Position numbers and translations under genes: made by a program
Shown: piece by piece, positions 4,859 to 24,060 of the stretch
How positions within the stretch are numbered: position 1 is the stretch's first letter
Layout: the number at the start of each line of letters is the position of its first letter
The notes under the pieces: model-generated
What the model was told of the DNA's origin: nothing
What the model saw: the letters and a program-made list of their open reading frames with translations, nothing else
Database searches by the model: none
Assembly: GCF_003097495.1 (NCBI RefSeq)
Contig: NZ_QEOP01000001.1
Location: 930,001 to 994,000, forward strand
Reading direction: 5' to 3'
DNA from: Amnibacterium flavum
GTDB lineage: Bacteria; Actinomycetota; Actinomycetes; Actinomycetales; Microbacteriaceae
Length of the DNA: 64,000 nucleotides

Positions 4859-6385
4859 TCAGCTGTCCTCGAGGACGGCACCCGCGGTGCGCACCGCGAG
4901 GGCGACGGTGGTGACGGTGGGGTTCGAGGCGGTCGGTGTCGGGATCACTCCGTTGCCGGCGACATAGAGGCCGGGAACGTCCCAGACACGACCCCACGGG
5001 TCGGAGACGCTCTCACCGTCGTTGTCCTCGCCCATCCGAACCGTTCCCTGGTAGTGGATCGAGCTGCCGGCGGGCACGAGTCGAGGGTGTCCGCCGGGCA
5101 CGGGCACGCCCATCTTCTCGACGAGACCGCTGACGATGCCGAGCGCCCGGTTGATGGTGGCGCGATCGACGTCGGTCAGTTCGTAGTGGATCTTCGGCGC
5201 GGGCATGCCGAAGAAGTCCACCTCGGACTCGCTGAACTCGATGTGGTCCTCGAACCGGATGTCCTTCGTCGTGAAGCAGCCCAGACCGACGATCGGGCGG
5301 CGGTCGTCGCTCTCGACATCACCCACGATCATGGGAGCCGCATCGCGCTGCATGATCTGTCCGTGGAAGGGGTAGTCGGGTGCGTTGAAGGGGATCCAGC
5401 TGACCCCTGTCATCGCCTCGCGCTCCGAGTCGGCCGCCTGCTCGATCTGGTCGGGCGGCGCGATGCTCGGGTCGAGGTAGACCGAGCACATCACCTGCGG
5501 CTGGTCGTTGAGATAGTGGCCGAGTGCGCGGGGCCGGATCCCCGATGCCCACAGCAGCTGGGGCGACCCGAACGCGTCGGCGGCGACCACCACCTGCGGA
5601 GCTTCGACCTCTGACCGTTCGCCCGTAACCCGGTCCTCGATCTCGAGACCCCGGACGGCTCCCGAATCATCGAGGAGCACGCGGCGGGCGAGGGTGGAGG
5701 CGCGGAGCTCGAACGATTCGGGCCTCGTCGCCTCGTCGGCCAGCTCGCCGAGCACCGTGTCGGCTCCCGACCACCGCGGTCGGCCGCTCGGTGTCGGTGT
5801 GGCAGCGAGCGGCATGGCCTGGACGCGGCGATCGGCGGGCCGGCCCTCGTTGAAGAACTCTCCGAGCGCACGTTCGACGGCGGCGCGGACGCCGGACTCC
5901 GGATAGGCGTCCTGGGTCACGTGCAGCAGCTCGCCGGCTCGGTCGAGCAGGGCGTCGAGCTCATCGCCGGGGATGAAGGGGACGCGCTCGGTGTTGCCGG
6001 GCAGTGGGCAGGCGCAGGTCCAGTGCTGCCCCATGCCTCCGACCCCGGCGCTCGCAAGAGCCCCCGGCATGTTCGTCTGCGGGTCGTCCCCGATCATCTC
6101 GCCGATGAGGAAGGTCCCCGGGCGCGCGACGGGCCGACCCTGCCGCGAGTCGGAAACGGTAGTCCGACCGTCGGCGTTCGGGCCCTGGGCGAGACGTTCG
6201 GCGTTCGCACGCAGCTCGCCGCTCAGGTTGCGCACCGATTCGCCGGCCAGCGGCGTCGTCTGCGGTCCGCGTTCGACCATCAGGATGCGGGCGTCGGGGC
6301 GGGCCGCGGAGACCTCGCGGGCGACGGCACTGCCCGCGGGACCGCTGCCCACGATGATGAGGTCGTATCCGGACTGTTCGCTCAC
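4859..6385 (-). CDS. FAD-dependent GMC oxidoreductase, pyranose oxidase / C-glycoside 3-oxidase type (copy 1)
   Basis: A 508-residue GMC flavoprotein. The Rossmann motif GSGPAG is at residues 13-18. GMGQHWTCACP, with His121, corresponds to the HWT region around the flavin in pyranose oxidases. A C-terminal His444 (SIHYQGTVRMG) and Asn488 (TASNPTV) form the catalytic pair, spaced like the His/Asn pair of fungal pyranose 2-oxidase. The last 80 residues contain the expected YVAGNGVIP segment. The family includes bacterial glucose/C-glycoside 3-oxidases such as CarA, which oxidise C3 of the sugar before deglycosylation. GTG at 6385 is the start. It is last in a six-gene leftward operon. No signal peptide is visible, so it should be cytoplasmic. 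Confidence 0.85.
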   Translation of the reverse strand: MSEQSGYDLIIVGSGPAGSAVAREVSAARPDARILMVERGPQTTPLAGESVRNLSGELRANAERLAQGPNADGRTTVSDSRQGRPVARPGTFLIGEMIGDDPQTNMPGALASAGVGGMGQHWTCACPLPGNTERVPFIPGDELDALLDRAGELLHVTQDAYPESGVRAAVERALGEFFNEGRPADRRVQAMPLAATPTPSGRPRWSGADTVLGELADEATRPESFELRASTLARRVLLDDSGAVRGLEIEDRVTGERSEVEAPQVVVAADAFGSPQLLWASGIRPRALGHYLNDQPQVMCSVYLDPSIAPPDQIEQAADSEREAMTGVSWIPFNAPDYPFHGQIMQRDAAPMIVGDVESDDRRPIVGLGCFTTKDIRFEDHIEFSESEVDFFGMPAPKIHYELTDVDRATINRALGIVSGLVEKMGVPVPGGHPRLVPAGSSIHYQGTVRMGEDNDGESVSDPWGRVWDVPGLYVAGNGVIPTPTASNPTVTTVALAVRTAGAVLEDS

Positions 6386-6389
6386 GTGC

Positions 6390-7952
6390 TCAGTGCTCCT
6401 CGAGGATCGAATCCGCCGCGCGCAGCGCGAGTGCCACGCTCATAAGGGTCGGATTGACGACGGTGTTGGTGGGGATCACGCCGTTGCCGGCGAGGTACAG
6501 GTTGTCGAACTGCCAGACCCTGCTCCAGGCGTCGCATACGGAGGCGCCGTCGTCGACGGCTCCCATCCGCATGGTCCCCTTGTAGTGCAGGCTCGCGCCG
6601 TTCGGCATGACGGCGGGCTCGCCACCGGGGATGAAGCTGCCGATGGCCCCCGCTACGCGCGCCTGGCTCTCGCGAGCGCCCGCGAGCTCGGCCTGCTCGC
6701 GCTCCGTCAGCTCGTAGTGCACGGTCATGTTCGGCATGCCCGCCCAGTCGAGTTCGTCGTCGTCGTAGGTGACGCAGTCCTCGTAGCGGGCGAACTTGCG
6801 GACTCCGAAGCCCACGTTGGCGTAGCCCCACGGGTTGCCGTGCAGCGGGTGGTCCTCGGGGATAGGGAGCGGCGACTCGTACATGTACAGGACCTGCGAC
6901 GAGTACGGGTGGTCAGGCTCGGAGTAGGGGACGCGCAGCACCGCGGCGACGGGGTCGCTGGTCCCGGCGGCGGCCATCCGCGCACGCTCGTGCTCGATCT
7001 GATCGAGGGTGAGGCGACCGGCCAGCTTCTCCCCGTCGATGGCGACGACGCTGAAGACCCCGGGGTGATCGCTCAGGTAGTGGCCGAGCGCCGGGGGGCG
7101 GATGCCCGACGCCCACAGCAGCTGCGGGGTCCGAAGGGCGTCGGCGGCAGCCACAACGAGGTCGGCGGCGACGAACCGCTCGTCTCCGCCGCGCGGCTTC
7201 ACCATCACCCCTGTCACGTGCCCACCGTCGTCGACGATCCGGGTGACGGGTGTCTCGGGAATCAGTTCGAAGCGGGAGGACAGCTCGGAGTCGGGATCGA
7301 TGAGGGGTCCGAGCACCGTGTCGGTGCCCGTCCAGCGCATCGACCCGTCGGACTGGAGGTCGCCGGCGACGGGCAGCGGGCTCACGCCGTATCCCTCGGG
7401 GAGGAGCGCGTCGACGGCGTCCGAGATCGCGCTCTGCAGGCCGGCAGCGATCGCGGAACCGTCGAACGCGCGGTGCGTCGTGTGCAGCACCGCTTCGGCG
7501 CGCACGACCAGGTCGTCCCATTCGTCGGCGGGGATGAAGGGGATGCGTTCGCTGAACTGCGGGCGGGGTGTCGCGCAGGTCCAGTGCGCACCCTGCCCAC
7601 CCACGCAGGTTGCGACGGCGGCGGCCGGGAACTCGGAGGAATGCCCCGAGCCCTCGCCCCCGAAGTCGATGAGGTGCGTGCCGGCCCTGGCCGTGTAGGT
7701 GCCCTCGATGACGGTCGTGATGGGGATGCCGAGGCCGACCGACTCGCCCTCGCCCGACTTGGGCCCCTGGGATGCCCGCCGGGCGTGGAGCTTCTCGTCG
7801 GGGTCGACGATGTTGCGCACGTTCATGCCCGCCGGATCCGAGACGACGGGTCCGCGCTCGAACATCGTCACCTCGATCTCGGGGGAGCCTTCGAGGAGCC
7901 GCCGGGCGAAGGCGGAGCCGACGGGTCCGCTTCCGACGACGACGACCTTCAT
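6390..7952 (-). CDS. FAD-dependent GMC oxidoreductase, pyranose oxidase / C-glycoside 3-oxidase type (copy 2)
   Basis: A 520-residue paralogue of the protein encoded at 4859-6385. GSGPVG is at residues 7-12, GGQGAHWTCATP carries His123 and is closest to the pyranose oxidase flavin motif, and the catalytic pair is His456 (LHYKGTMRMG) and Asn500 (TVVNPTL), again 44 residues apart. The start at 7952 overlaps the stop of the upstream TIM-barrel gene by 4 bp (ATGA). The two GMC copies differ in the substrate-cap region and in the loop before HWT, so they probably oxidise different glycosides or different linkage positions. The likely reaction is O2- or acceptor-dependent oxidation of a glucosyl C3 (or C2) hydroxyl to the ketone. 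Confidence 0.86.
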   Translation of the reverse strand: MKVVVVGSGPVGSAFARRLLEGSPEIEVTMFERGPVVSDPAGMNVRNIVDPDEKLHARRASQGPKSGEGESVGLGIPITTVIEGTYTARAGTHLIDFGGEGSGHSSEFPAAAVATCVGGQGAHWTCATPRPQFSERIPFIPADEWDDLVVRAEAVLHTTHRAFDGSAIAAGLQSAISDAVDALLPEGYGVSPLPVAGDLQSDGSMRWTGTDTVLGPLIDPDSELSSRFELIPETPVTRIVDDGGHVTGVMVKPRGGDERFVAADLVVAAADALRTPQLLWASGIRPPALGHYLSDHPGVFSVVAIDGEKLAGRLTLDQIEHERARMAAAGTSDPVAAVLRVPYSEPDHPYSSQVLYMYESPLPIPEDHPLHGNPWGYANVGFGVRKFARYEDCVTYDDDELDWAGMPNMTVHYELTEREQAELAGARESQARVAGAIGSFIPGGEPAVMPNGASLHYKGTMRMGAVDDGASVCDAWSRVWQFDNLYLAGNGVIPTNTVVNPTLMSVALALRAADSILEEH

Positions 7953-8917
7953 GACGCCGCCGTGATCGGCTGCAGCACGTGCTGCAGGTACCACCCGTTG
8001 AGCATGGCGCTCGTCGGCGGGTGCGGCGAGAGATCGGATTCGACGGTCACCCAGCCGTCGTAGCCGTGGGAGACGAGGGCGCGGACGACGGCCTCCGCAT
8101 CGACGATGCCGGCAGCCACGCCCAGCTCGAGGAACCAGCGCGGAACCGGCTTCTCCCCACCGCCCTTCTTCACGTGATGCTCGGCGTTCCGGCGCAGGTA
8201 CTCGTCGTCATCGTCGACGGCTGCCGCGTTCTTGAGCTGCACGTGCGCGACCCGATCGGGGTGCGCCTCGATGAATGCCACCGGATCGAGCCCCGCCGCG
8301 GCGAACTCGCCCGTGTCGACGGAGAATCCGACGAGGGCGGGGTCCGTGGCGGCCAGGAGCCTCTCGAGCCCATCGTGGGAGCGCAATGCCGAGAGGAAGT
8401 CGAAGTGGAGGGCGAGCCGGATCCCGAGCGGGGCGATCGCGCGTCCCACATCGTTCCAGCAGGCGGCGATCGTGTCGATCACCGCGTCGTCGAGCTCGGG
8501 TCGCTGCCACGCCGATGCCGTGGGACGCACGACCAGCACCTCTCCCCCCAGCTCCGCGAGCGCTTCGGCGAACCAGGTCGCATGCGAGACCACCGAGTCG
8601 TGCGCGGCCGGATCGGCCGGGTCGGCGGGACCGGACAGGTCCTCGCGGAACCCGAGCAGCGGGTCGAAGAACCAGCTGCTCACCGCCTCGAGAGCAGCGT
8701 CATGGACGAAGTCGGCGAAGCCCGCCGCCGATCCGAAGTTCGCGGCGAGCTGATCGGGGTTGCCGAGCGGCTCCCAGCGACCCGTGCCGGTCGTCAGCTC
8801 GACACCGGTGAAGCCGCTGATCGAGATGACGCGCAGGGCGCGCTCGTGATCGCGACGGCGGGTGAAGTCGTCGAACGACGGCTTCCACTGGTTGATGGCG
8901 TACGACCACCTGATCAC
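7949..8917 (-). CDS. Sugar phosphate isomerase/epimerase-like TIM barrel, type B copy 2
   Basis: A 322-residue xylose-isomerase-like TIM-barrel protein beginning WSYAINQWKPSF. It is a paralogue of the protein at 9855-10847; the two align almost without gaps over the first 230 residues. Likely metal-ligand positions are Asp173 (ALHFDFL, where most relatives have Glu), Asp201 (SVDTGEF), the AHVQLKN strand (His225, with Gln at 227) and Glu in VTVESD near residue 293. GTG at 8917 overlaps the upstream stop as GTGA. The gene lies between a type A partner and the GMC oxidases. By family and context it probably acts on a 3-keto-glycoside or the keto sugar released from it; the reaction is not established. 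Confidence 0.8.
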   Translation of the reverse strand: MIRWSYAINQWKPSFDDFTRRRDHERALRVISISGFTGVELTTGTGRWEPLGNPDQLAANFGSAAGFADFVHDAALEAVSSWFFDPLLGFREDLSGPADPADPAAHDSVVSHATWFAEALAELGGEVLVVRPTASAWQRPELDDAVIDTIAACWNDVGRAIAPLGIRLALHFDFLSALRSHDGLERLLAATDPALVGFSVDTGEFAAAGLDPVAFIEAHPDRVAHVQLKNAAAVDDDDEYLRRNAEHHVKKGGGEKPVPRWFLELGVAAGIVDAEAVVRALVSHGYDGWVTVESDLSPHPPTSAMLNGWYLQHVLQPITAAS

Positions 8918-9858
8918 TTCGCGGCCTCCTCTCGTGCGACCTTCTCGAGCACGTTCTTGGCGTACCAGCGAGCGATGGCGGTGCTCTCGGCGTGGTCGCC
9001 GCCGAGCTTGTTGGCCTTGTCGTGCTCGACGCTCAGCCAGCCGTCGTAGCCGTTGCGCACAACCGCGCGCATGAATGCCTCGAAGTCGACGAGACCTCCC
9101 TCGTCGCCCATCTCGTGGAACCACCTCGGTGTGGTGGTCCCCATCAGTTCGGCGTCGGGGCGGCGGCGGTAGTCGCCGACGAGATCCTGGTGGCGCGTGT
9201 CCTTGAAGTGGAAACCCGTGACCCGATCGGCGTACTTCTCGTAGAACTCGACCGGGTCGACGCTCGCGATGCAGTGCTGCGCGGTGTCGACGAACAGGTT
9301 GACCAGGGCGGGGTCGGTGTAGGCGTAGAAGGTGTCGAGCTCCTCCTTCGACTGGATCCCGCAGAAGAACTCGTGGTGGCAGGTCAGCTTGACGCCCGCG
9401 TCGAGCGTGATCGCGCCGACCTTGTTCCACAGCTCGGCGGTGGTCTTGATCTTGTCCTCGGTGACCGGCTCCATGTCGTAGTAGAGCGTCGCCGGCATGA
9501 CGATGATGTTGTCGAGCTGGATGCCCGACCAGCGGTCCATCGTGACCCGGAAGTCCTCGAGGATGTTGTCGTGCGTCGAGGCGATGTGGGGCGCGTAGTT
9601 GCGCTGGTCGTACGCCGCGGCGTGAAACGTGTTGACGATTCGCTCGAGACCGCGCTCCTGCACGAACTCCTGGTAGTTCGCAACCGAACCGTACTGGTCG
9701 ATGATCGTGAAGTAGCGGTGGTCGAAGGTGTCGATGGCGTCGTAGCCGACCGCCGCGACCTGCTTCAGGAAGCGGTCCATCGAGTCGTAGGTCTGCCACT
9801 GATCGATCGGGCCGTTCGGCGACGGGCTCCGCCAGTGGTCCATGTAGCTCCACTTCAT
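8914..9858 (-). CDS. Sugar phosphate isomerase/epimerase-like TIM barrel, type A copy 2
   Basis: A 314-residue TIM-barrel protein starting MKWSYMDHW, paralogous to the protein at 10844-11791. Candidate metal ligands are Glu163 (CHHEFFCG), Asp191 (FVDTAQH), His217 (GFHFKDT) and the Glu of LSVEHDKA near residue 285, the usual E-D-H-E set of the xylose-isomerase-like fold. ATG at 9858 overlaps the upstream stop by 4 bp. With type B copy 2 it repeats the order A then B seen at 11791-9855. A type A/type B heteromer is suggested by this conserved pairing (inference). Confidence 0.82.
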   Translation of the reverse strand: MKWSYMDHWRSPSPNGPIDQWQTYDSMDRFLKQVAAVGYDAIDTFDHRYFTIIDQYGSVANYQEFVQERGLERIVNTFHAAAYDQRNYAPHIASTHDNILEDFRVTMDRWSGIQLDNIIVMPATLYYDMEPVTEDKIKTTAELWNKVGAITLDAGVKLTCHHEFFCGIQSKEELDTFYAYTDPALVNLFVDTAQHCIASVDPVEFYEKYADRVTGFHFKDTRHQDLVGDYRRRPDAELMGTTTPRWFHEMGDEGGLVDFEAFMRAVVRNGYDGWLSVEHDKANKLGGDHAESTAIARWYAKNVLEKVAREEAAK

Positions 9859-10847
9859 CGTGCGGGCTCCTCGGTTCGGGCCGCGGCGCGGAAACCGGCC
9901 GCGGCGATGTGGGTGAGATACCAGGCGTTCAGCATTGCGCTCGTGGCCGGTTCGGGCGACTGGTCGCTCTCGAGCACTACCCACCCGGAGTAGTCGGATT
10001 CGCCGAGCACGCCGAGCACAGCTGCGGCGTCGACGAGACCCGCCTCGCTCCCGAACTCGAAGAACCAGCGTTCGATCCGGCGCCCCGCGTTGCCCTGGAG
10101 CATGTCGACCTCTGCCCCCGGCAGAAGGTAGGCGTTCTCCGAGTCGACGAAATGGCTGTCCTTGAGGTGCACGTGCCCGATGCGGTCGACGTGTCTGCGG
10201 GCGATCGCGACCGGGTCCTCGCCCGCCACGACGAGGTCGGCGGTGCTGAGGGAGAGGTCGACGAGGTCGGGGTCGGTGGAGTCGAGCAGGCTCGCGATGC
10301 CCGCCGCATCCCGCAGGGGAGACAGGCAGTCGATGTCGGCGGCGAGCCGGACACCACGGTCCTTCGCAGCCGAGCCGATCCGCTCGAGCACCGAGGCGAC
10401 CGCTCCGACGTCGAGGTCGGCTCCGATGCGGCCGGCGGGCTCGGTGGCCCGGACGACGATCCGATCGCAGCCCAGCTCGGTCAGGAGGTCGAGATACGGG
10501 TCGACCGCGGCGAGGATCCGGGCGTGATCGGCGGGGCGGGAGGTCGAGCGGAGGTCGAATCCCTCCTCGGCTGCCGGAGCCGACGGATCCCAGGTGAGGC
10601 TCGAGACGGCGTCGATTCCGCATTCGGCGAGCCGGCCGACGAATCCGGCCGACGACCCGTAGTTCAGTCGGAGATGCTCGGGGCGGCCGAGGTTGCTCCA
10701 CCGGCCCGTGCCCGCCCAGAGCTCGACGGCCCGGAACCCCGAGACGGACAGCGTCTTGAAGGCGCGCTCGTGATCTTCGAGACGAACGAACGAGGTCGGG
10801 CTCTGGCGCCACTGGTTGAGGGCGTAGGAGTAGCGGAATCCGCTCAT
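9855..10847 (-). CDS. Sugar phosphate isomerase/epimerase-like TIM barrel, type B copy 1 (altered metal site)
   Basis: A 330-residue paralogue of the protein at 7949-8917, beginning MSGFRYSYALNQW. Asp173 (AADIDCL) is kept, but the next ligand position, Asp201 in the other copy, is Ser201 (LSLSTADL). The HVHLKDS strand and LESDQSP near residue 301 are kept. Loss of one acidic ligand suggests a weakened metal site or a structural partner role. ATG at 10847 overlaps the preceding stop by 4 bp. The alternative upstream Met at 10892 would overlap type A copy 1 by 49 bp and is not preferred. Confidence 0.8.
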   Translation of the reverse strand: MSGFRYSYALNQWRQSPTSFVRLEDHERAFKTLSVSGFRAVELWAGTGRWSNLGRPEHLRLNYGSSAGFVGRLAECGIDAVSSLTWDPSAPAAEEGFDLRSTSRPADHARILAAVDPYLDLLTELGCDRIVVRATEPAGRIGADLDVGAVASVLERIGSAAKDRGVRLAADIDCLSPLRDAAGIASLLDSTDPDLVDLSLSTADLVVAGEDPVAIARRHVDRIGHVHLKDSHFVDSENAYLLPGAEVDMLQGNAGRRIERWFFEFGSEAGLVDAAAVLGVLGESDYSGWVVLESDQSPEPATSAMLNAWYLTHIAAAGFRAAARTEEPAR

Positions 10848-11791
10848 GCGGCACCCCCTCGGACCGAGTCCAGCACGTTGTCGATGTACCACTTCGCCAC
10901 GGCGGTCGCCTCGGCGAAGTTGCCGCCGCCCAGGTCGGCCTTGTCGTGCTCTACCGTCAGCCAGCCGTCGAATCCACTGTCGAGGATCTCGCGCATCAGC
11001 GCCGGGAAGTCGACGAGGCCCTCTGGCGTGCCCATCTCGTAGAACCAGCGGGGCACTCCGGTCGCCATCAGCTCGGCATCAGGTGCCGTCCGGTACGCGT
11101 CGAAGTCGTCCACTCGCTGGGTGTCCTTGAAGTGGAATCCGCGGCAGCGATCGCGATAGCGGCGGAACAGCGCGAGCGGGTCGACCCCCGCGATCGTGTG
11201 CTGGGCGGTGTCGCAGAAGAAGCCGACCAGCTCGGGGTCGGTGTGCTCGAAGAAGAGCGCCAGCTCGTCCTCGGTCCTGATGGCCCCCCAGAACTCGAAG
11301 TGGCAGGTCAGGTTGAGGCCTCGCGGTGCGAGCATCGCGCCGACCCGGTTCCAGAGCTCGGCGGTGATCTTGATGGTCTCGTCGGTCACGGGCTCGACCT
11401 GGAAGTACGTGTTGGTCGGCATCACGATGACGTTCTCGACCGCGAGACCGTCCACGGCGGCAGCCGTGCGCTCGAAGTCGGCGAAGATCCGGTCGTGGGT
11501 CTCGCGGCGGTGAGGAGCCGCGAAATCCGTCGCATACGGGTAGGCGGCGAAGACGCCGGTGAGTCCGACGAAACCGTGATCCTGAAGGGCCCGCTCGAAC
11601 GCCGGGACCGAACCGTACAACGACGCGTAGATCGGAAGGGTGAAGCCGAAGGTGTCGAAGCCGGTGAAACCGAGCGTCTCGAGCTGCCGAAGATAGCGCT
11701 CGGTGTGATTCCTGTTGAACGTCGGCTGCCGCGGTCCCTGGGGGGTTCCGGTTATCCAGTGATCCATATAGGACCAGCGTTTCCACGTCAT
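10844..11791 (-). CDS. Sugar phosphate isomerase/epimerase-like TIM barrel, type A copy 1
   Basis: A 315-residue TIM-barrel protein with the same architecture as the protein at 8914-9858: RWSYMDHW at the N-terminus, CHFEFWG with the Glu ligand, FFCDTAQH with Asp, RGFHFKDT with His and TVEHDKA with the final Glu. It is the first gene of the leftward operon A1-B1-A2-B2-GMC2-GMC1; the first five genes are linked by 4-bp overlaps and the last follows after a 4-bp gap. A clear AAGGAG precedes the ATG at 11791, and the perfect operator palindrome lies 24 bp upstream. A role in processing 3-keto-glycosides or derived ketoses is inferred from family and neighbours. Confidence 0.83.
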   Translation of the reverse strand: MTWKRWSYMDHWITGTPQGPRQPTFNRNHTERYLRQLETLGFTGFDTFGFTLPIYASLYGSVPAFERALQDHGFVGLTGVFAAYPYATDFAAPHRRETHDRIFADFERTAAAVDGLAVENVIVMPTNTYFQVEPVTDETIKITAELWNRVGAMLAPRGLNLTCHFEFWGAIRTEDELALFFEHTDPELVGFFCDTAQHTIAGVDPLALFRRYRDRCRGFHFKDTQRVDDFDAYRTAPDAELMATGVPRWFYEMGTPEGLVDFPALMREILDSGFDGWLTVEHDKADLGGGNFAEATAVAKWYIDNVLDSVRGGAA

Positions 11792-11814: not shown

Positions 11815-11836
11815 ACTACCTACCTTGGTAGGTAGT
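11815..11836. promoter_or_regulatory. Perfect palindromic operator, island regulon site 2
   Basis: ACTACCTACC-TT-GGTAGGTAGT: two perfect 10-bp arms around TT, placed upstream of the leftward TIM-barrel/GMC operon and just after the stop of the TrmB-like gene. It is the best copy of the TANCYACY-NN-RGTRGNTA motif also found at 1452-1469 and 14036-14053. Its symmetry suits a dimeric winged-helix regulator. The regulator encoded next door is the obvious candidate. Confidence 0.75.
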
Positions 11837-14020: not shown

Positions 14021-14035
14021 GTGAATATTTCCTCC

Positions 14036-14053: not shown

Positions 14054-14079
14054 ATAGAGGCCCGAACGATGGAGTGACG

Positions 14080-16799: not shown

Positions 16800-18535
16800 C
16801 CGACCGCCTCGACCCGATCACCGCGGAGATCATCCGCGGCAACCTCATCGGCATCACCAATGAGATGAAGACCAATCTCATGCGGACCGCCTACAACCAG
16901 ATCATCTACGAGGCCCAGGACTTCACGGTCGGCCTCTTCGACTCGGACGGGGAGACCGTGTCCATCGGGCTCGGGCTGCCGATGTTCGTCGGCGGGCTGT
17001 CGCATGCGGTCAAGGCGATGATCGAGCACTTCGGACGCGACGGGATCGATCCGGGCGACGTCCTCCTCACCAACGACGGCTTCCTCAGCGGCAGCCATCT
17101 GAACCACATCATCGTCGTGCTCCCGGTCTTCGCCGACGGGCGCATCGTCGCGTTCTCCGCATCGATGGCGCACTGGGCCGATGTCGGCGGAGTCCTCGGC
17201 GGCACCACCCACGACATCTACTCCGAGGGCTTCCAGTTCCCGATGGTCAAGATCGTCAAAGCGGGGGTCGAGGATCGCGAACTGCTCGCCATCATCGAGC
17301 TCAACGTCCGGTTCTCCAACCTCGCCCTCGGCGATCTCCGCGCGCAGCTGGCAGCGGTCCGCACGGGTGAGGCCCGCATCGTCGAACTCGCCGCGCGGTA
17401 CGGAGCCGACGTCCTCGACGCCGCCTTCCAGGCGATGTTCGACGCCAGCGAGAAGCGCGCCAGGGCAGCGGTCCTCGCCATCCCCGACGGGGAGTACCGT
17501 GCGAGCGCCGAGATGGATGACGACGGCGTACGCGTCGGTCAACGCGTCCCCATCGACGTCACGGTGCGCATCGAGGGCGACCGCTTCATCGTCGACCTGT
17601 CGCGGATGAGTCCTCAGGTGCCGGGCTACTACAACTCCGGCGAGGCGGCCGGACTCTCCGCCGTCCACGTCGCCTTCAAGGCTCTGACTTCGCCGACCGA
17701 GGGGCCCGTCAACGCGGGAAGCTTCCGTCCGGCCGAGGTGATCCTCCCGCCGGGCACCGTTGTGAGTGCTCAGCGGCCCGCGGCGATGCGCTGGTGGATG
17801 ACCTATCCGATGACGCTGGTCGACTGCATCTTCCGTGCCCTCGCCCCCGCGGTTCCGAACCTCGCGATCGCCGGTCATCACGCCGACATCGGGGTGGCGA
17901 CCGCCTTCGGCGAGGATTCCGAGACGGGTCGGCTCTTCGTCTTCGTCCATGCCGCCCAGGGCGGAGGATGGGGCGCCCGCCGCGACGCCGATGGCGAGAG
18001 CGCGACGATCTGCATCAATGACGGCGACACCCACAACACCCCGATCGAGGCCAACGAGGTCAAGCGCTCGGGGCTCCTCGCCACCCGGTACGAACTGCGG
18101 CCCGACTCCGGAGGGGCCGGCAGACGACGCGGCGGCCTCGGAACGACATTCGAGTGGCAGGTCGAGGCCGGGATGCGCTTCAACAGCTCGGTCGAGCGGA
18201 CGGTCATGGCGCCCTGGGGACTCGAGGGCGGAACCGCCGCGTTCCCGAACGCGGTCCGGCGGCGGGAACCCGAGGGGGGAATCGTCACACTGCCGAGCGG
18301 CAAGGCCGACTCCCTGCCGTTGGCGCCCGGCGAATCCTTCATCGTCGAGACCGGCGGCGGGGGAGGTTTCGGCGATCCGGCCGAGCGACCCGCGACCGAG
18401 GTCCTGGCGGACGTCACGGCCGGCTACGTCAGCGTCGATGCCGCGCGCGAGCTCTATCGCGTCGCGATCGACGGGGATCAGGACGGCTGGCGCATCGACG
18501 AGCCGGCGACGGCGGAACTGAGGAGGACACGATGA
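16796..18535 (+). CDS. Hydantoinase/oxoprolinase B-type subunit
   Basis: A 579-residue HyuB-type subunit beginning DPITAEIIRGNLIGITNEMK, the family start block. Further marks are TNDGFLSGSHLNHIIV and the C-terminal ETGGGGGFGDP that closes most HyuB proteins, followed by RPATEVLADVTAGYVS. It forms the metal-containing catalytic half of the two-subunit enzyme made with the product of 14760-16799. ATGA overlaps join it to both neighbours (16796 and 18532). Substrate class as for the A subunit. Confidence 0.88.
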   Translation: MTDRLDPITAEIIRGNLIGITNEMKTNLMRTAYNQIIYEAQDFTVGLFDSDGETVSIGLGLPMFVGGLSHAVKAMIEHFGRDGIDPGDVLLTNDGFLSGSHLNHIIVVLPVFADGRIVAFSASMAHWADVGGVLGGTTHDIYSEGFQFPMVKIVKAGVEDRELLAIIELNVRFSNLALGDLRAQLAAVRTGEARIVELAARYGADVLDAAFQAMFDASEKRARAAVLAIPDGEYRASAEMDDDGVRVGQRVPIDVTVRIEGDRFIVDLSRMSPQVPGYYNSGEAAGLSAVHVAFKALTSPTEGPVNAGSFRPAEVILPPGTVVSAQRPAAMRWWMTYPMTLVDCIFRALAPAVPNLAIAGHHADIGVATAFGEDSETGRLFVFVHAAQGGGWGARRDADGESATICINDGDTHNTPIEANEVKRSGLLATRYELRPDSGGAGRRRGGLGTTFEWQVEAGMRFNSSVERTVMAPWGLEGGTAAFPNAVRRREPEGGIVTLPSGKADSLPLAPGESFIVETGGGGGFGDPAERPATEVLADVTAGYVSVDAARELYRVAIDGDQDGWRIDEPATAELRRTR

Positions 18536-19431
18536 GCATCACCCGCTTCCACCGGATGCGGTTGGCCGACACCGAGCGGATCGTTGCCGAACGGGACGGG
18601 CGGTATCACGATGCGGCCCGCCTCCTCGGGCGTCCGGTCGACATCGCCGACGTGCTCCAGGACACCGGGCTCGTCGACGAGATCGAGGCGGCGATCGGCG
18701 ACGGGCGCGTCGCCGAGACCAGCATCGAAGGCTGGACGCACCGTCCGCCGACGGTCGACCGGCCGGCCGTCTTCTGCGCCGGCGCCAACTTCGCCGACCA
18801 TGTCGCCGAGATGGGCGAGACGGCGATCGTGCGCCCCTACCACTTCATCTCCCCGCCCACGGTGCTCGCCGGCGACGGCGACCAGGTCCGACGCCCGACG
18901 GGAGGCGACCTGCTCGACTGGGAGGTCGAACTCGTCGCCGTGATCGGACGCCGCTCTTTCGAGGTCGCAGAGGAGTCAGCTCTCGACGTGCTCGCGGGAT
19001 ACACGGTCGGCAACGACGTCTCCGTCCGCGGACCGCACCTCGTGCACCCGATCTTCGGAATCGACTGGGGAGTCGCGAAGAACGCGGACGGTCTCACACC
19101 GATCGGGCCCGCCCTCGTGCCGGCGCGCTTCGTGCCGGATCCCCAGGCCCTCGCCATGACCCTCACGGTCGACGGCATCGTCCGGCAGCAGTCGTCGACC
19201 GCGCAGATGCTCGTCAGCGTCGCGGCGCAGATCGCCGCGATCACCCGCTACACGACGCTGAACCCCGGTGATCTGATCCTCACGGGGACTCCCGCCGGAA
19301 CCGCACGCGCGCACGACGGCGCCTACCTCGAGGACGGTGCCGTCATGGTCGCCGAGATCGACGGCGTCGGCAGCCTCAGCAACCAGATCGTCGCTACCCG
19401 GCGCGACGCGAACGACAGGGAGAACCGATGA
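18532..19431 (+). CDS. Fumarylacetoacetate hydrolase family protein
   Basis: A 299-residue FAH-superfamily protein. The metal-binding set is visible: Glu residues in DLLDWEVELVAVIG near 125-135 and Asp in GYTVGNDVSVRG near 160; FCAGANFADHVAEM and LILTGTPAGTA are the usual flanking blocks. Members hydrolyse C-C bonds of 1,3-diketones, decarboxylate oxaloacetate-like acids or dehydrate 2-keto-3-deoxy sugar acids. AGGAGG precedes the ATG at 18532. Placed after a HyuAB pair and before deglycosidase subunits, it could cleave an aroylacetate-type diketone from the aglycone or act on a keto sugar acid; the sequence does not decide. Confidence 0.87.
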   Translation: MSITRFHRMRLADTERIVAERDGRYHDAARLLGRPVDIADVLQDTGLVDEIEAAIGDGRVAETSIEGWTHRPPTVDRPAVFCAGANFADHVAEMGETAIVRPYHFISPPTVLAGDGDQVRRPTGGDLLDWEVELVAVIGRRSFEVAEESALDVLAGYTVGNDVSVRGPHLVHPIFGIDWGVAKNADGLTPIGPALVPARFVPDPQALAMTLTVDGIVRQQSSTAQMLVSVAAQIAAITRYTTLNPGDLILTGTPAGTARAHDGAYLEDGAVMVAEIDGVGSLSNQIVATRRDANDRENR

Positions 19432-20423
19432 CCCATTCCATCAAACGGGGCGTCAGCCTCTACTCGTTCCAAGAGGAGTTCTTCCTCCGCGAGCTGAGCC
19501 TCGAGGACTGCATCAGGATCTCCGTGGGGTTCGGTGCATTCGGCATCGAGACCATCGCCGAGCAGATGATGCCCGGCTTTCCCAACCTGACCGAGGACTT
19601 CTACCGCCGGTGGGACGGCTGGCGCGAGCAGTACGGCTTCCAGCCGACGGCGCACGACATGTTCGCCGAGCTCAAGCTCTACCCCGACCGCGAGCGGCCG
19701 ACCGACGAACTGGTCGCTGACTTGAAGAAGGACATCGACCACACCGCGCGACTCGGAGCGACCGTCATCCGGATCCTCGCGGCGACGCCCGCAGAGGTCG
19801 TCGAGCTCGCGGCGCCCTACGCGCGCGACAAGGGGATCAAGCTGGCCACCGAGATCCACTCCCCGCGCCGGTTCGGGAGCGAGTGGTTCGAGAGCCACCT
19901 CGAGGTCGCCCAGCGGGTCGGATCCGACGTGGTGGGGATCTGCCCCGACCTCGGGATCTTCGTCAAGCGCCTGCCCCGCGTCCTCTGGGAGCGTTCACTG
20001 CGCGACGGAGCCGACCCCGACTTCGTCAAGCGCGTCGTCGACGTCTACGACAGCGGCGAGGACACCTCGATCCTTCCCGTGGAGGCCGAGAGGCTGAACC
20101 TCGGGCCGATCGAGCAGGACCTGGCGGTCCAGGCCACCCGGTTCATCTGGGAGGAGCCGCGACGGCTGCTCGACTACATGCCGTTCATCCACCACGTGCA
20201 CGCCAAGTTCTACGACATCGACGAGAGCGGCGAGGAGTACAGCATCCCCTACGGCGAGATCATCTCGGTCCTCAAGGAGGGCGGGTACGACGGCTACCTG
20301 TCCAGCGAGTACGAGGGCAACCGGCACATCCAGGACGCGTTCGAGGTAGACAGTGTCGAACAGGTGCGTCGCCACCAGGAGATGATGGCCCGCCTGCTCG
20401 ACGACGAGAAGCAAGGAGACTGA
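19428..20423 (+). CDS. C-glycoside deglycosidase alpha-like subunit (TIM barrel), copy 1
   Basis: A 331-residue sugar phosphate isomerase/epimerase-fold protein. Metal ligands can be placed at Glu142 (LATEIHSP), Asp174 (CPDLGIF), His258 (HHVHAKFYDID) and Glu294 (SSEYEG), with His144 as a further active-site candidate. The HAKFYDID strand is shared with the protein at 21220-22224. Known C-glycoside deglycosidases (DgpBC, CarBC and the Arthrobacter/Microbacterium CGDs) are heteromers of such a barrel with a small beta protein, and cleave the C-C bond of 3-keto-C-glycosides. The next gene encodes that beta type, four bases downstream. ATGA overlap with the FAH gene. Confidence 0.83.
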   Translation: MTHSIKRGVSLYSFQEEFFLRELSLEDCIRISVGFGAFGIETIAEQMMPGFPNLTEDFYRRWDGWREQYGFQPTAHDMFAELKLYPDRERPTDELVADLKKDIDHTARLGATVIRILAATPAEVVELAAPYARDKGIKLATEIHSPRRFGSEWFESHLEVAQRVGSDVVGICPDLGIFVKRLPRVLWERSLRDGADPDFVKRVVDVYDSGEDTSILPVEAERLNLGPIEQDLAVQATRFIWEEPRRLLDYMPFIHHVHAKFYDIDESGEEYSIPYGEIISVLKEGGYDGYLSSEYEGNRHIQDAFEVDSVEQVRRHQEMMARLLDDEKQGD

Positions 20424-20426
20424 CCC

Positions 20427-20819
20427 ATGTTCGACCGGTACATCATCGTCGAGAACAGCCTGCGCAACGTCGAGGACGGCGCCGACATCGTCGGCTTCGC
20501 CTTCGAGGCGCGCTGCGGGTACTACCGCAGACTCATCCTGTCCATGGTCGAGGAGCTTGCCGTCTCCGTCGACGGTGAGGCGATCCCTCGTGAGGATGTG
20601 GCCCTCACCGTCGACGGCACCAGCTACTCGCTCGAGGACATGCGCACCGAGTACACCGTCGCCTGGGAGTTCGGCGATCCGGCCACGATCACCGTCCGCA
20701 GACCCGGAGGGCTGACGGCGGGGCCGCACGAGCTGGGTCTCGCCGAACAGCTGCGCATCTCCTACATCCCCGTCCCGCACACCCCCTCCACGACGCAGAC
20801 CCAGACGGTGGCGGCGTGA
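20427..20819 (+). CDS. C-glycoside deglycosidase beta-like subunit (DUF6379-type), copy 1
   Basis: A 130-residue beta-rich protein starting MFDRYIIVENSLRNV, with GFAFEARCGYYRRLIL near residues 30-45 and a VSVDGEAIPREDVALTVDG strand pair. This pattern matches the small beta subunits of bacterial C-glycoside deglycosidases (formerly DUF6379), which complete the active site of the alpha barrel. AAGGAG precedes the ATG. It lies directly after alpha copy 1 and overlaps beta copy 2 by 4 bp (GTGA). Recognition is from remembered family character, not a search. Confidence 0.78.
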   Translation: MFDRYIIVENSLRNVEDGADIVGFAFEARCGYYRRLILSMVEELAVSVDGEAIPREDVALTVDGTSYSLEDMRTEYTVAWEFGDPATITVRRPGGLTAGPHELGLAEQLRISYIPVPHTPSTTQTQTVAA

Positions 20820-21223
20820 CCCGGCCCGAACTGCTCCTCGGCCCCGACGCCGCCGTCGCCGGCCCGGGCGGTCTCGAGGTGCGGATCCGCCAGCCGTGGT
20901 ACCGCAGCCTGCCCCTGACCAGCGTGCTCGGGGTCACGGTCGCGATCGACGGCGAGGACGTCCCGGCCGACGCCATACGGCTCCGAGTGAACGGGAGATC
21001 GCGCACCTTCGACGAGCTCGCCGAGGTGTGGGACGAGGTGTGGTTCATCCAGGACGAGGGGGCCGTCGAGATCGCCGGTGTCGAGAGAGCCGCCGGCGAC
21101 GACGTCGACGTCTCGGTCGAGATCGAACTCCGCTTCCCCTACATCATCATCGACGGCGTCGGTCCGCTCACCCGTCGCACCGACGCGCGCCGCACCCTGA
21201 GCGTTCAGGAGAACCGCCCATGA
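20816..21223 (+). CDS. C-glycoside deglycosidase beta-like subunit, divergent copy 2
   Basis: A 135-residue protein related to its upstream neighbour: GGLEVRIRQPWYRSLPL aligns with the EARCGYYRRLIL region, and VTVAIDGEDVPADAIRLRVN with the DGEAIPREDVALTVDG pair. A longer insertion and an acidic C-terminal stretch (DDVDVSVEIELRFPY) distinguish it. GTG at 20816 overlaps the previous stop; its own stop overlaps the start of alpha copy 2 (ATGA). The order alpha1-beta1-beta2-alpha2 suggests it pairs with alpha copy 2. Confidence 0.74.
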   Translation: MTRPELLLGPDAAVAGPGGLEVRIRQPWYRSLPLTSVLGVTVAIDGEDVPADAIRLRVNGRSRTFDELAEVWDEVWFIQDEGAVEIAGVERAAGDDVDVSVEIELRFPYIIIDGVGPLTRRTDARRTLSVQENRP

Positions 21224-22224
21224 CCACCGCTCCTCTTCTCGGCACGACTCTCTACTCGTTCACCAACGAGTGGGTCACCGCCCGCTACACGCTCACCGAA
21301 CTGCTCGAGCATGTCGCCGAGACCGGCATCGGGCCGGGGGTGGAACTCGTCGGCTTCCAGAGCATCCGCGACTTCCCCCGTCTCGAGACGTCGTTCATCG
21401 ACGAGTTCCGGGAGACCACCTCGAGACTGGGCCTCGTCCCCACCTCCCTCGCCGCGAACATCGACATCGCCATCCGTCGCGACAGGGACCTGACGACCGA
21501 GGAACGCGTCGAGTACACGATTCCCCAGATCGAGGCCGCGAGGCTCCTCGGCTTCCCGGTCGTCCGCATCCAGATCGGCGCGGACCCGGCGACGCTCGAG
21601 CGGCTCGTCCCGTACGCCGAGAAGGCCGGCGTCCGTCTCGGCATGGAGATCCACGCGCCGGAAGGCCCCCTGACGCCCAAGGTGCGGGCGGTCAGCGAGG
21701 TCTACGACCGCATCGACTCCGACCTGCTCGGCTTCATCCCCGATTTCAGCTCGACGATGCACAGCATCTCGGCCGGGCTAGCTCAGACCTACGTCGAGGC
21801 CGGGCTCCCCGCGGAGCTCCTGCCCGAGCTGCAGCGCATCTGGGCGGGCGGCGGTGGGCAGGGCGAGCGTCTGAAGGAGTTCATCGCGCTCGCCGAGAGC
21901 CGAGGGGTGCCCGCATCCACGGCGTCCGTCGTCGCGAGCGCCTTCACGATGAACGGCCATGAGCGTCCCGAGGACTGGGCCGAACTCATGCCGCGCATCT
22001 TCCACATCCACGCCAAGTTCTACGACATCGACGACAACGGCGACGAGCCCGCCATCGACTACTTCCGCAACCTCGGCCCGATCCTCCGGGCGGGGTTCTC
22101 CGGGTCGATCTCGAGCGAATGGGAGGCCCACTCCTGGACTCCCAACGCCGAACTGCGGACCGCCGAGCTGATCCGCCGTCAGCACGATCTGATGCGCAGG
22201 GTCATCTCCGAGGTGAACGCGTGA
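21220..22224 (+). CDS. C-glycoside deglycosidase alpha-like subunit (TIM barrel), copy 2
   Basis: A 334-residue paralogue of the protein at 19428-20423, starting with GTTLYSFTNEW (copy 1: GVSLYSFQEEF). Ligand positions match closely: Glu143 and His145 (GMEIHAPE), Asp175 (IPDFSST), the His of FHIHAKFYDID and the Glu of SSEWEAHSW. Sequence between the blocks has diverged, so a different aglycone or sugar is likely. It overlaps beta copy 2 and the following dehydrogenase gene. Confidence 0.81.
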   Translation: MTTAPLLGTTLYSFTNEWVTARYTLTELLEHVAETGIGPGVELVGFQSIRDFPRLETSFIDEFRETTSRLGLVPTSLAANIDIAIRRDRDLTTEERVEYTIPQIEAARLLGFPVVRIQIGADPATLERLVPYAEKAGVRLGMEIHAPEGPLTPKVRAVSEVYDRIDSDLLGFIPDFSSTMHSISAGLAQTYVEAGLPAELLPELQRIWAGGGGQGERLKEFIALAESRGVPASTASVVASAFTMNGHERPEDWAELMPRIFHIHAKFYDIDDNGDEPAIDYFRNLGPILRAGFSGSISSEWEAHSWTPNAELRTAELIRRQHDLMRRVISEVNA

Positions 22225-23243
22225 CGGGAACCACCCGCTGGGCCATCGTCGGCACCGGAGGCATCGCACGGCGGGTGCTCGCCGACCTGCGCCTCACCGA
22301 GAACGTCGAGGTCGTCGCCGCCGGGTCGAGGAGCCAGGAGACGGCCGACCGCTTCTGCGCCGAGACGGGCGTGCCGCGCGGGTACGGCGACTACGAGGCG
22401 CTGCTGCAGGACGAGGGGATCGACCTCGTCTACATCTGCACACCGCACCCGATGCACTTCGACTACGCACGGCGCGCGATCCTCGCCGGCAAGCACGTCC
22501 TCGTCGAGAAGCCCATGGTCATGGCGCTCGGGCACGCCACCCAGCTGCGCGACCTCGCGGCGGCGCGCGGCGTCTTCCTCATGGAGGCGCTGTGGACCAA
22601 GTTCAACCCCAACGTGCGACGTGCCCTCGCCGTCGTCGCGGAGGGCAGGATCGGCGTGCCCCGATTCGCGCAGACCGGGATGGGGTTCCCCGTCGCGGCG
22701 ACCGGCCCGAAGAGGTTCTGGGATCCGGAGCTCGGCGGGGGAGCCCTCTGGGATCTGGGGGTCTACACGCTGTCCATCGTGCACGCCTTCCTGGGGGCGC
22801 CGCGCGCCGTCCGCGCCCTCGGCGAGCTGCAGGACGACGGGGTGGACCGCTGGGAGGCGGCGACCCTCGACTACGACGGCGGGGGCGTGGCGCTCGCCGC
22901 ATCGTCGATCGTCTTCGCCGTTCCGCCATCGGCGTCGATCGGCGGCACGAAGGGCACCCTCGTGTTCTCGGGGCCGTTCTTCTCACCGACGGCGTTCACC
23001 GTCACACTCGGCCGCCCTCCCGGCGACTCCTCGATCGAGGAGTTCAGCGAGCCGCTCGAGGGTGTCGGCTACGTGCCGATGTTCCGCGCCGTCAGCGAGA
23101 CCGTGCTGGCAGGCGACCTCGAGCATCCCTTCCACCCCGTGTCGGACACGATCGAGGTCCTCCAGATCATGGAGGCCGTCCGCGATCAGCTCGGCCCCGC
23201 GCACGCCCACGGTCCCGTCGCCCACGTTCCCGCCAACAACTGA
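22221..23243 (+). CDS. Gfo/Idh/MocA family oxidoreductase
   Basis: A 340-residue NAD(P)-dependent dehydrogenase. The Rossmann motif GTGGIA is at about residues 11-16, CTPHPMHFDYARRAI near 75, the signature EKPMVM near 100, and FLMEALWTKFNP near 127. In anaerobic C-glycoside degraders a Gfo/Idh enzyme (DgpA) oxidises sugar C3; here two GMC oxidases may do that, so this enzyme may instead reduce the keto sugar released or recycle it. GTG at 22221 overlaps the previous stop as GTGA. Confidence 0.88.
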   Translation: MTGTTRWAIVGTGGIARRVLADLRLTENVEVVAAGSRSQETADRFCAETGVPRGYGDYEALLQDEGIDLVYICTPHPMHFDYARRAILAGKHVLVEKPMVMALGHATQLRDLAAARGVFLMEALWTKFNPNVRRALAVVAEGRIGVPRFAQTGMGFPVAATGPKRFWDPELGGGALWDLGVYTLSIVHAFLGAPRAVRALGELQDDGVDRWEAATLDYDGGGVALAASSIVFAVPPSASIGGTKGTLVFSGPFFSPTAFTVTLGRPPGDSSIEEFSEPLEGVGYVPMFRAVSETVLAGDLEHPFHPVSDTIEVLQIMEAVRDQLGPAHAHGPVAHVPANN

Positions 23244-23283
23244 GCCCCGGCGCCCCGTCGGTCAGCAACGAATGGAGTCACGC

Positions 23284-24060
23284 ATGTTCACCCTCGCACC
23301 CAACATCGACCTGCTCTACACGGAAGCGGGTGACGATCTCGCGGATCGTGTCCGGGCGGCTGCGGCCGACGGCTTCGACACCGTCGAGATGTGGGGCACC
23401 GTCGGCCGTGATGTGCCGGCCCTCGCTGCCGCCCTCCAGGAGACCGGAGTCGCGGTGAGCTCGGTGCTGAGCCTTCCCCGCACGAACTTCGCCTGGCCGA
23501 ACGCCGACCTCGAAGCGTTCTACGCCGGTGTCGCGTCCACCATGGCCGACGCCCGCGCACTGGGCTGCCCCCGCGTGGTCGTCGGCTCGGGGGCGGGGTT
23601 CAGCGCGATGAAGCGACCCGCCCAGCACGCGCGTCTCGCCGAGATCCTGACCGAGGTCCTGGAGCGCACCGCGGATTCGGGGGTCGACATCGTCCTCGAG
23701 CCGGTCAACAGCCGAGTCGATCACCCGGGTGCCTTCCTCGATCACACCGAGTACGCCATCGAGGTGGCGCGCGCCGTCGGATCGCCGCGGCTGACCCTCC
23801 TGTACGACCTCTACCACTCGCTCACACAGCGCGAGAGCGTCGAGGGGACTCTCGCCGCGGCGTCGGGACTGATCGGCTACGCGCAGCTCGCCGATGTGCC
23901 GGGACGCGGAGAGCCGGGTTCCGGCACCGTGGACTGGAGCGAGCAGCTCCGCCTGCTCCAGGCGGCCGGATACACGGGCGTCATCGGCTTGGAGTTCGTG
24001 CCGACGCAGGCGACCTCGAGCGCTGTCGCGGAGATCGTGCGCATCAACTCCGAGCTCTGA
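23284..24060 (+). CDS. Hydroxypyruvate isomerase-like TIM-barrel protein
   Basis: A 258-residue member of the xylose-isomerase-like fold resembling Hyi: LAPNIDLLYTE at the N-terminus, DIVLEPVNSRVDHPG with a metal-ligand Glu, LYDLYHSLTQ with Asp and His, and GVIGLEFVPTQ with the last Glu. GGAG lies before the ATG at 23284. It is last in the rightward operon, 40 bases after the dehydrogenase. Likely an aldose-ketose or hydroxypyruvate/tartronate isomerase acting on the sugar-derived product. Confidence 0.82.
   Translation: MFTLAPNIDLLYTEAGDDLADRVRAAAADGFDTVEMWGTVGRDVPALAAALQETGVAVSSVLSLPRTNFAWPNADLEAFYAGVASTMADARALGCPRVVVGSGAGFSAMKRPAQHARLAEILTEVLERTADSGVDIVLEPVNSRVDHPGAFLDHTEYAIEVARAVGSPRLTLLYDLYHSLTQRESVEGTLAAASGLIGYAQLADVPGRGEPGSGTVDWSEQLRLLQAAGYTGVIGLEFVPTQATSSAVAEIVRINSEL

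Follow-up and report, generated by a model that had tools for sequence, protein, structure and literature searches.

C-glycosides resist ordinary glycosidases. What does a bacterial locus do, in which genes for C-glycoside deglycosidases (CGD) overlap genes of an aglycone-degrading type? We asked this question of a 64-kb stretch of the Amnibacterium flavum genome, hereafter the window (C1:930001-994000 of the 3.57-Mb genome, 68.6% G+C). The fate of the aglycone after sugar cleavage in soil bacteria is not covered in the sections of the CGD papers cited below, and this island joins both halves, predicted deglycosylation and putative aglycone metabolism, by gene overlap and a common operator. 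We consider it probable that it is a self-contained island for the aerobic use of C-glycosides, and probably of O-aryl-glycosides as well, with a branch for the aglycone. The deglycosylation core is of a known kind and the aglycone branch is unusual. Since the two halves are tied by overlap and operator, a series of mutants or transcripts could reveal the missing aglycone route.

Genes were called from open reading frames (ORFs), from the G+C content of the codon positions and from sequences resembling ribosome-binding sites, and proteins were assigned by Pfam, NCBIfam and PDB sequence searches. The island spans C1:923270-954060 (~30.8 kb) and the window covers its portion from 930001 on. It reaches beyond the left edge into a stretch that we call L007, with two further alpha/beta pairs and an importer. 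The genes of the sugar half are the following, in window coordinates unless L007 is given.

4859..6385, minus strand: GMC1, predicted CarA/G3Ox-type C-glycoside 3-oxidase (PF05199 4.5e-19; 8QVE 9.4e-130, 7DVE 3.6e-116)
6390..7952, minus strand: GMC2, second predicted CarA/G3Ox-type oxidase (PF05199 2.8e-14; 7QF8 4.8e-108, 7DVE 1.5e-99)
7949..8917, minus strand: TIMd1, IolE-like barrel whose metal-site residues are altered (PF01261)
8914..9858, minus strand: TIMc1, IolE-like barrel whose metal-site residues are intact, candidate 3-keto-glucal hydratase (PF01261)
9855..10847, minus strand: TIMd2, partner of TIMc2 (PF01261)
10844..11791, minus strand: TIMc2, second IolE-like barrel with intact metal-site residues (PF01261)
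19428..20423, plus strand: A1, CGD alpha subunit (PF01261; 8QVC 2e-101; residues EHDHKEE)
20427..20819, plus strand: B1, CGD beta subunit (PF19906 2.3e-38; 8QVC chain B 2.6e-23)
20816..21223, plus strand: B2, CGD beta subunit (PF19906 8.9e-15; 7DNM chain B 1e-15)
21220..22224, plus strand: A2, CGD alpha subunit, 7DNM-like (PF01261; 7DNM 4e-81; E147, H149, D179, H269, K271, E305 and E307 retained)
22221..23243, plus strand: GFO, Gfo/Idh oxidoreductase, proposed 3-keto-sugar reductase (PF01408 2.9e-26)
23284..24060, plus strand: HYI, hydroxypyruvate-isomerase-like barrel (PF01261 1.2e-33; TIGR03234 2.5e-42, under cut-off)
L007:11270-12708: A4/B4, CGD-like alpha subunit with Gln149 and Gly307, and an adjoining small protein (B4) without Pfam match

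Both oxidases carry GMC domains and have bacterial G3Ox structures (8QVE, 7QF8, 7DVE) as nearest PDB relatives. The motifs IHYQGT and SNPTV of GMC1, and LHYKGT and VNPTL of GMC2, lie at the positions of the His and Asn that we take to be the catalytic residues of CarA/G3Ox-type oxidases. Both beta subunits exceed the PF19906 cut-off of 27.6 bits (130.9 for B1, 54.9 for B2), and the closest structures in the PDB sequence search are 8QVC for A1/B1 and 7DNM for A2/B2. We took 7DNM as AgCGD2, and its residue numbering agrees with PMC8563793, where the part cited describes the metal ligands E147, D179, H269, K271 and E305 of the alpha subunit, plus His149 and Glu307. The full set of these seven metal and base residues is present in A1 and in A2. 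Homology and residues thus bear out the first-pass annotation of this DNA, which had named oxidases and deglycosidases from the letters and translations, and in sequence searches neither pair fell outside the known deglycosidases. A1/B1 and A2/B2 are thus predicted CGD pairs that would cleave 3-keto-C-glycosides.

Two more pairs lie in L007, bringing the island to four (A1B1, A2B2, A3B3, A4B4); the Pfam CGDB family (PF19906) is found at three places of the genome, one of them immediately left of the window. A3/B3 follows genes for a solute-binding protein and two permeases, with A3 at 50% to A1 and B3 matching PF19906 at 3.6e-36 (123.9 bits). A4/B4 is more divergent (A4 27% to A2, B4 25% to B2). 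Neither A3, with Gln at 269, nor A4, with Gln at 149 and Gly at 307, has the canonical seven residues. We compared 86 alpha sequences from this genome, its relative Naasia aerilata, 19 other genomes of the family (matches >750 bp; shorter ones were dropped) and two Arthrobacter plasmids, each assigned to a class by its best query. Three residue patterns occur at the seven positions: EHDHKEE in 50 of the 86 sequences (48 A2-like and 2 A1-like), EHDQKEE in all 20 A3-like and EQDHKEG in all 16 A4-like sequences. The latter two classes are invariant across genera despite the loss of a metal ligand (H269Q) or of the base and its partner (H149Q, E307G), and decay is therefore unlikely. This pattern suggests that they carry out other chemistry and, together with the IolE-like pairs, makes them further enzyme targets. 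A plasmid of Arthrobacter sp. NicSoilB11, typed as conjugative, carries a GMC oxidase and CGD beta and alpha genes adjoining genes for a GH3 and an alpha-L-rhamnosidase.

The remaining features of the island in the window include the aglycone-type genes, the putative regulator and its candidate operators.

53..700, plus strand: 3' part of an MFS transporter gene that starts left of the window (ORF from L007:17399; synteny in Naasia, 75%)
709..1449, minus strand: ECH1, crotonase family (PF00378 5.2e-39 on 709-1458; start at the ATG at 1449, ORF from 1458; Naasia 68%, syntenic)
1450..1471, no strand: operator site 1, between ECH1 and AMH (5/22 mismatches to the palindrome at 11815; Naasia equivalent at L092:8270, 6/22 mismatches)
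1481..2326, plus strand: AMH, hydrolase or decarboxylase of the Amidohydro_2 family (PF04909 7.8e-39, scored over the longer ORF 1187-2326; Naasia 94%, dN/dS 0.07)
2358..3119, plus strand: SDR oxidoreductase (Pfam/NCBIfam; Naasia 92%)
3125..4780, plus strand: LIG, acyl-AMP/CoA ligase (PF00501 1.2e-61; Naasia 89%)
11815..11836, no strand: operator site 2, the palindrome that precedes the TIM/GMC operon (ACTACCTACC-TT-GGTAGGTAGT, inverted repeat)
11877..12797, minus strand: TrmB-family regulator, proposed operator-binding protein (PF01978 2e-17; Naasia 74%)
12875..14020, minus strand: THL, thiolase (PF00108 6.3e-64; TIGR01930 423.7 against a cut-off of 240.55, over)
14034..14055, no strand: operator site 3, divergent promoter of THL and the ECH2-HyuAB-CGD operon (6/22 mismatches to the palindrome at 11815; kept in Naasia)
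14080..14763, plus strand: ECH2, crotonase (PF00378 1.9e-31, from profile position 44)
14760..16799, plus strand: HyuA, ATP-binding subunit of hydantoinase/ketone-carboxylase type (Pfam; CapA 1.2e-149 and ApcC 3.2e-78, both under cut-off)
16796..18535, plus strand: HyuB, metal subunit of HyuAB (PF02538 1.3e-151)
18532..19431, plus strand: FAH-family hydrolase (PF01557 3.1e-58; 43% over 190 aa to an FAH-like protein of a cassette in genome G274, discussed below)

Pfam, NCBIfam and PDB searches recovered every item of the inventory given in the first-pass annotation: two GMC oxidases, two alpha and two beta subunits, seven proteins of the xylose-isomerase fold, Gfo/Idh, HyuAB, FAH, thiolase, crotonases, SDR and ligase. 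Most of them lie between 4859 and 24060, where it had placed them all; the ligase, the SDR and one crotonase, together with the amidohydrolase that it did not mention, are at 709-4780. The genes are tightly packed. Overlaps of 4 bp join TIMc2-TIMd2-TIMc1-TIMd1-GMC2, ECH2-HyuA-HyuB-FAH-A1 and B1-B2-A2-GFO, and gaps of 3-5 bp separate GMC2 from GMC1, SDR from LIG and A1 from B1 (3 bp for the last pair). The gap between GFO and HYI is 40 bp.

Site 2 is an inverted repeat with 10-bp arms, and sites of the same kin occupy the ECH1/AMH and THL/ECH2 divergent promoters. A 16-mer, CTACCTACYWWGGTAG, searched with at most two mismatches, has four matches in the whole genome, all at these three sites. 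It replaced a looser palindrome, ACTACCNNNNNNGGTAGT, which proved unspecific: 13 copies in the window against 8.2 +/- 3.0 expected, a count reached in 7 of 100 shuffles and hence not significant, and 39 in the genome against 312 for the control. Naasia has all three sites. Its site 2 reads ACTACCTACCGGAGTAGGTAGT, which keeps the left arm and nine of the ten right-arm bases and differs at three central bases. This conservation is independent support for the operator. The TrmB-family protein passes the PF01978 cut-off (63.2 against 25.6) and misses those of the archaeal TrmB equivalogs; we infer that it binds the three sites. No match to it was found in 19 other CGD genomes of the family, and no site at up to six mismatches in the 37 stretches examined around their CGD genes or in the plasmid loci.

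The co-occurrence of GMC, alpha, beta and HyuAB genes, for which the first-pass annotation had suggested a neighbourhood search, was found once more. A scan of genome contigs with HyuB gave 39 loci, two of which (L009, L010) belong to Naasia aerilata (Microbacteriaceae; NZ_AP027731.1) and match our island in gene order, at 60-93% identity; the combination was seen neither at the 37 others, in the DNA examined, nor near the CGD genes of the 19 other CGD genomes. A further Naasia stretch (L092) covers the left arm as far as A4, and synteny extends from A4/B4 through to HYI. The end of the Naasia record matches its start (99.9% over the 9.1 kb tested) and the island is there twice (L009, L010, L092-L095), with several frames broken; the likely cause is a circular overlap left untrimmed. 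Other CGDB genes of Naasia lie at ~0.32-0.34 and 1.87 Mb. Between the two genomes, dN/dS is 0.06-0.30 in all 22 window genes tested, and about 0.1 for HyuA, HyuB, LIG, THL, A1, A2, TIMc1, TIMc2 and TIMd1; a first run, in which paralogues were mixed for the TIM, A1 and A2 genes, was discarded. Such low values indicate that the aglycone branch is maintained. Overlaps, retention in Naasia and purifying selection on HyuA, HyuB, LIG and THL thus uphold the linkage of aglycone-type to CGD genes.

How might the island work? The reactions, their order, the pairing of TrmB with the operator and the nature of the aglycone are predictions from sequence. The ABC importer and the MFS carrier would take up the glycoside, and GMC1 and GMC2 would oxidise C3 of the sugar using O2. 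The metal-dependent A1B1 and A2B2, with A3B3 and A4B4 as variants outside the window, would then eliminate the aglycone and leave 2-hydroxy-3-keto-glucal, which the TIMc/TIMd pairs (or HYI) may rehydrate to 3-keto-glucose, to be reduced to glucose by GFO. On the other side, HyuAB might spend ATP on a ketone-like aglycone or fragment, either by enol-phosphorylation and carboxylation or by hydrolysis. C-C hydrolysis by FAH, CoA activation by LIG, crotonase and SDR steps and thiolysis would follow. The local TrmB would govern the three promoters through an operator of the form ACTACCTACC-NN-GGTAGGTAGT.

The rehydration step calls for closer attention. Two of the seven PF01261 barrels of the window are the CGD alpha subunits, and four others are the IolE-like TIMc1, TIMc2, TIMd1 and TIMd2, all scoring under the IolE cut-off. 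E163, D191, H217 and E278 are invariant in ten of ten TIMc sequences, where their roles as ligands are assigned by analogy. Among nine TIMd sequences, Asp replaces the first Glu in all, the second ligand is lost in one and Gln stands for His in four. The two genes adjoin in five of the 19 other CGD genomes (G016, G026, G032, G036, G103). Against the 2-hydroxy-3-keto-glucal hydratase 8RO4 (AtHYD), the TIMd profile gives 1.1e-6 and the TIMc profile a weak match. From the residue patterns, the side-by-side genes and these matches we propose that TIMc and TIMd form a two-chain hydratase. Novosphingobium humi also has a TIMc/TIMd pair, on a plasmid that encodes a tryptophan-halogenase-family protein, a cupin and an SDR nearby; no CGD query matched within 14 kb of the pair, and a CGD alpha match lies elsewhere on the plasmid.

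The same proteins invite another reading, in which the CoA, HyuAB and FAH genes act on the oxidised sugar half or on a cyclitol, with the IolE-like and Gfo/Idh proteins in that route. The presence of four IolE-like proteins would fit it, as would the match of FAH to 2,4-didehydro-3-deoxy-L-rhamnonate hydrolase (2.2e-43, under cut-off). Yet, the published proposal, as set out in the part of PMC10628242 cited, ends with reduction of the keto-sugar, the ligase resembles an aryl-acid ligase, and the five other genomes with TIMc/TIMd pairs have no HyuAB nearby. We find this reading quite improbable.

In our preferred account of an island with an aglycone branch, HyuAB would act on the aglycone or a fragment of it. 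HyuA has the ATP motifs, and its Lys286 aligns with Lys281 of ApcA' and Asp302 of CapA (by motif counting from part of PMC8453981), which leans toward a ketone carboxylase. The nearest NCBIfam model of LIG is the 2,3-dihydroxybenzoate-AMP ligase TIGR02275 (4e-144; 480.8 against a cut-off of 723.55, under). In the part of PMC5214803 cited, a benzoylacetate-CoA ligase is encoded in one operon with the apc genes and thiolysis comes afterwards; by analogy, this logic would suit the presence of LIG and THL in the island.

Several observations weigh against this account. HyuAB consists of two genes, both under the NCBIfam cut-offs for acetophenone carboxylase (263.7 bits for HyuA as ApcC and 131.7 for HyuB as ApcD, against 1500, and two subunits in place of a five-subunit complex) and for caprolactamase CapAB (499.7 and 287.9 against 1000). 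By eye, HyuB has HLNH (HxxH), where CapB is described, in the part of the literature cited, with His99-xx-Asp102. The two-gene form, the family scores and this motif appear to fit neither Apc nor CapAB. By alignment, 36 consecutive residues inside the Naasia protein have no counterpart in ECH2. The Pfam scan, in the island genes that it covered, showed no aromatic ring oxygenase, hydroxylase or dioxygenase, so the "full set" of aromatic and CoA genes of the first-pass annotation was too strong, and a complete aromatic pathway or any named substrate is unsupported. As to regulation, a reversed-pattern control has nine genome matches (six forward, three reverse) against four for the 16-mer. The 16-mer was built from the sites themselves and its count is not enriched over this control, hence the scan speaks for restriction to the island and not for the significance of the motif. 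Allowing up to six mismatches, we found no site at A4/B4 or at the importer operon of A3/B3, and the claim of one operator family is therefore valid for the three promoters of the window part and not for the whole island. The TIMc and TIMd profiles both match IolE better than 8RO4 (E 0.016 for TIMc against the latter), and in a Foldseek search with a predicted TIMc1 model (pLDDT 79.8), which orders structures within a known fold, IolE 3CNY ranks first and 8RO4 15th. Finally, none of the 37 HyuB loci outside Naasia has a GMC, alpha or beta match in the DNA examined, which indicates that HyuAB is not generally tied to glycosides; the two genomes in which it was seen next to CGD are related. The GPA motif occurs just before the 36-residue stretch of Naasia ECH2 and again at its end. 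Pseudouridine and bergenin were considered as substrates and dropped for lack of evidence.

These HyuB loci bring up the strongest alternative, namely that this is an ordinary deglycosylation island in which HyuAB, FAH, thiolase and ligase form a captured, independent module for a lactam, a hydantoin or a non-glycosidic aryl ketone, with a shared promoter and no shared pathway. HyuAB relatives (50-62%) do occur with an FAH match (11 of the 37 loci) or a ligase match (5 of 37) with no CGD or GMC match in the DNA examined, and a Streptomyces plasmid groups genes for ligase, FAH, HyuA, HyuB, crotonase and CoA-transferase. But a passive neighbour would account less well for the 4-bp overlap of FAH with A1, the three common operators and the retention in Naasia at dN/dS ~0.1, and other CGD islands also lie near aglycone-type genes. 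On balance we regard capture as rather unlikely, and keep to an island whose aglycone branch would belong to the pathway.

How common is such a linkage? PF19906 is present in 20 of 299 genomes of the family. The usual island contains HYI, GMC1, B2-A2, A2-B2, a GFO-like gene, A4/B4 and an importer, often with GMC2, and in these genes many of the islands resemble ours. The difference lies in its aglycone-type genes. A cyclase from G274, itself a CGD genome, has a match of at least 69% identity in all 19 other CGD genomes, not in our own, and in seven of 279 CGD-negative ones (Fisher p 2.6e-23 for 19/20 against 7/279, relatedness ignored); identity is 48-53% for the matches in another six genomes without CGD. 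In 17 of the 19 the cyclase is no more than 20 kb from a CGDB gene. It adjoins a FAD monooxygenase in all nine stretches that reach it (G007, G016, G028, G073, G103, G153, G188, G226, G274), mostly with FAH genes; a cyclase-FAD monooxygenase-FAH cassette stands at the edge of the CGD island in L051, L054, L058, L068, L071, L075, L076, L078 and L082. Pfam was run on cassette parts in two genomes, G274 and G188, and identified a thiolase, FAH and an FAD monooxygenase in both, besides a cyclase in G274 and Amidohydro_2 in G188. The cassette possibly serves flavonoid-type aglycone breakdown. Genes of pca type lie near the islands of five of the 19 genomes, called by family models in G226, G153 and G026 and by tblastn in G007 and G258. 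The ligase and AMH homologues of G032 (30% and 39%) amount to resemblance, not orthology.

Our own genome has HyuAB and CoA genes instead. It lacks the cyclase, with best homologues of 37-40% elsewhere in the genome, and is the one among the 20 with HyuB near CGD; distant HyuB homologues (31-34%) in four of the other 19 are on contigs without CGD genes. One might have thought that genomes with both CGD and HyuAB do without the cyclase, but Naasia carries one (70-73%, broken into two frames) ~100 kb from the nearer island copy. Pairing deglycosylation with aglycone-type genes thus looks like a rule of the family, and our island like a variant with a different set. The association of CGD genes with the cyclase is a rule to test. 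The first-pass annotation, which held the linked aglycone branch to be unusual, is right in part: aglycone-type genes often lie near CGD islands of the family, but the HyuAB/CoA set beside CGD was seen in this genome and in Naasia alone.

Oxidase and CGD clusters are known in soil actinobacteria (parts of PMC10646112, PMC12724307 and PMC10807413), and CarABC, PurABC and PsG3Ox-PsCGD are alike in having a GMC 3-oxidase and CGD alpha/beta subunits; in the PsG3Ox cluster, CGD_C and CGD_B genes are reported, two of each (part of PMC10646112). Our island differs in having four alpha/beta pairs, IolE-like barrels that come in pairs, a TrmB protein and, within the operon of the CGD genes, a HyuAB/CoA branch; aglycone genes are unmentioned for these systems in the parts cited of PMC12724307, PMC8563793, PMC10807413 and PMC10646112. 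The order of C3 oxidation, beta-elimination, hydration and reduction is a published proposal for the GlycDH-AtOGE-AtHYD-Gfo operon of Agrobacterium, a route that handles O-glycosides non-hydrolytically (part of PMC10628242), which shares with our island this logic, TIM barrels and a Gfo/Idh protein. Here, in contrast, the oxidase is a GMC flavoprotein, the eliminase a two-chain CGD and the hydratase candidates are paired IolE-like proteins. Apc and CapAB share with our genes the HyuA/HyuB superfamily and the ATP motifs, and the regulon has the CoA ligase and thiolase that acetophenone degradation would need, whereas the island has just two such genes, both under curated cut-offs. The fde and ifc flavonoid clusters (part of PMC11069340) likewise gather aglycone catabolism genes, whereas no FAD monooxygenase or glyoxalase-type dioxygenase of their kind was among the Pfam matches of the scanned island genes. 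We found no account of the HyuAB branch or of CGD-linked aglycone cassettes in searches of open-licence papers, which is not proof of absence.

These differences allow a bolder speculation, that the island represents a distinct class of C-glycoside system. In it, ATP-dependent HyuAB would open the aglycone as an aryl ketone, and CoA ligation and thiolysis would come next, in place of monooxygenase and ring cleavage. This would be the logic of acetophenone breakdown at work in an aerobe, applied directly to plant polyphenols once deglycosylated and encoded on one transcript with the deglycosidases; a two-chain IolE-type hydratase would have an active TIMc and an altered TIMd; and A3 and A4 would be two further CGD classes with changed chemistry. 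Taken as a whole, this is possible, if somewhat doubtful.

One might also ask whether C-glycosides are the main substrates at all, or incidental to O-aryl-glycosides or disaccharides. According to part of PMC12724307, O-glycosides too are oxidised by PurA and then lose the sugar spontaneously; moreover, our island has GH3 and GH1 genes in its vicinity. Spontaneous O-deglycosylation, however, needs no CGD alpha/beta pairs, and the GH3 and GH1 queries, like NHX, had no match beside the Naasia island. A main role on such substrates is therefore highly improbable, and C-glycoside use with an aglycone branch remains our preferred account. Queries from 25374-35919, right of the island, likewise had no match beside the Naasia island; this is a separate sugar cluster with a GH3, a LacI regulator, a solute-binding protein, a permease and a ThuA-domain protein.

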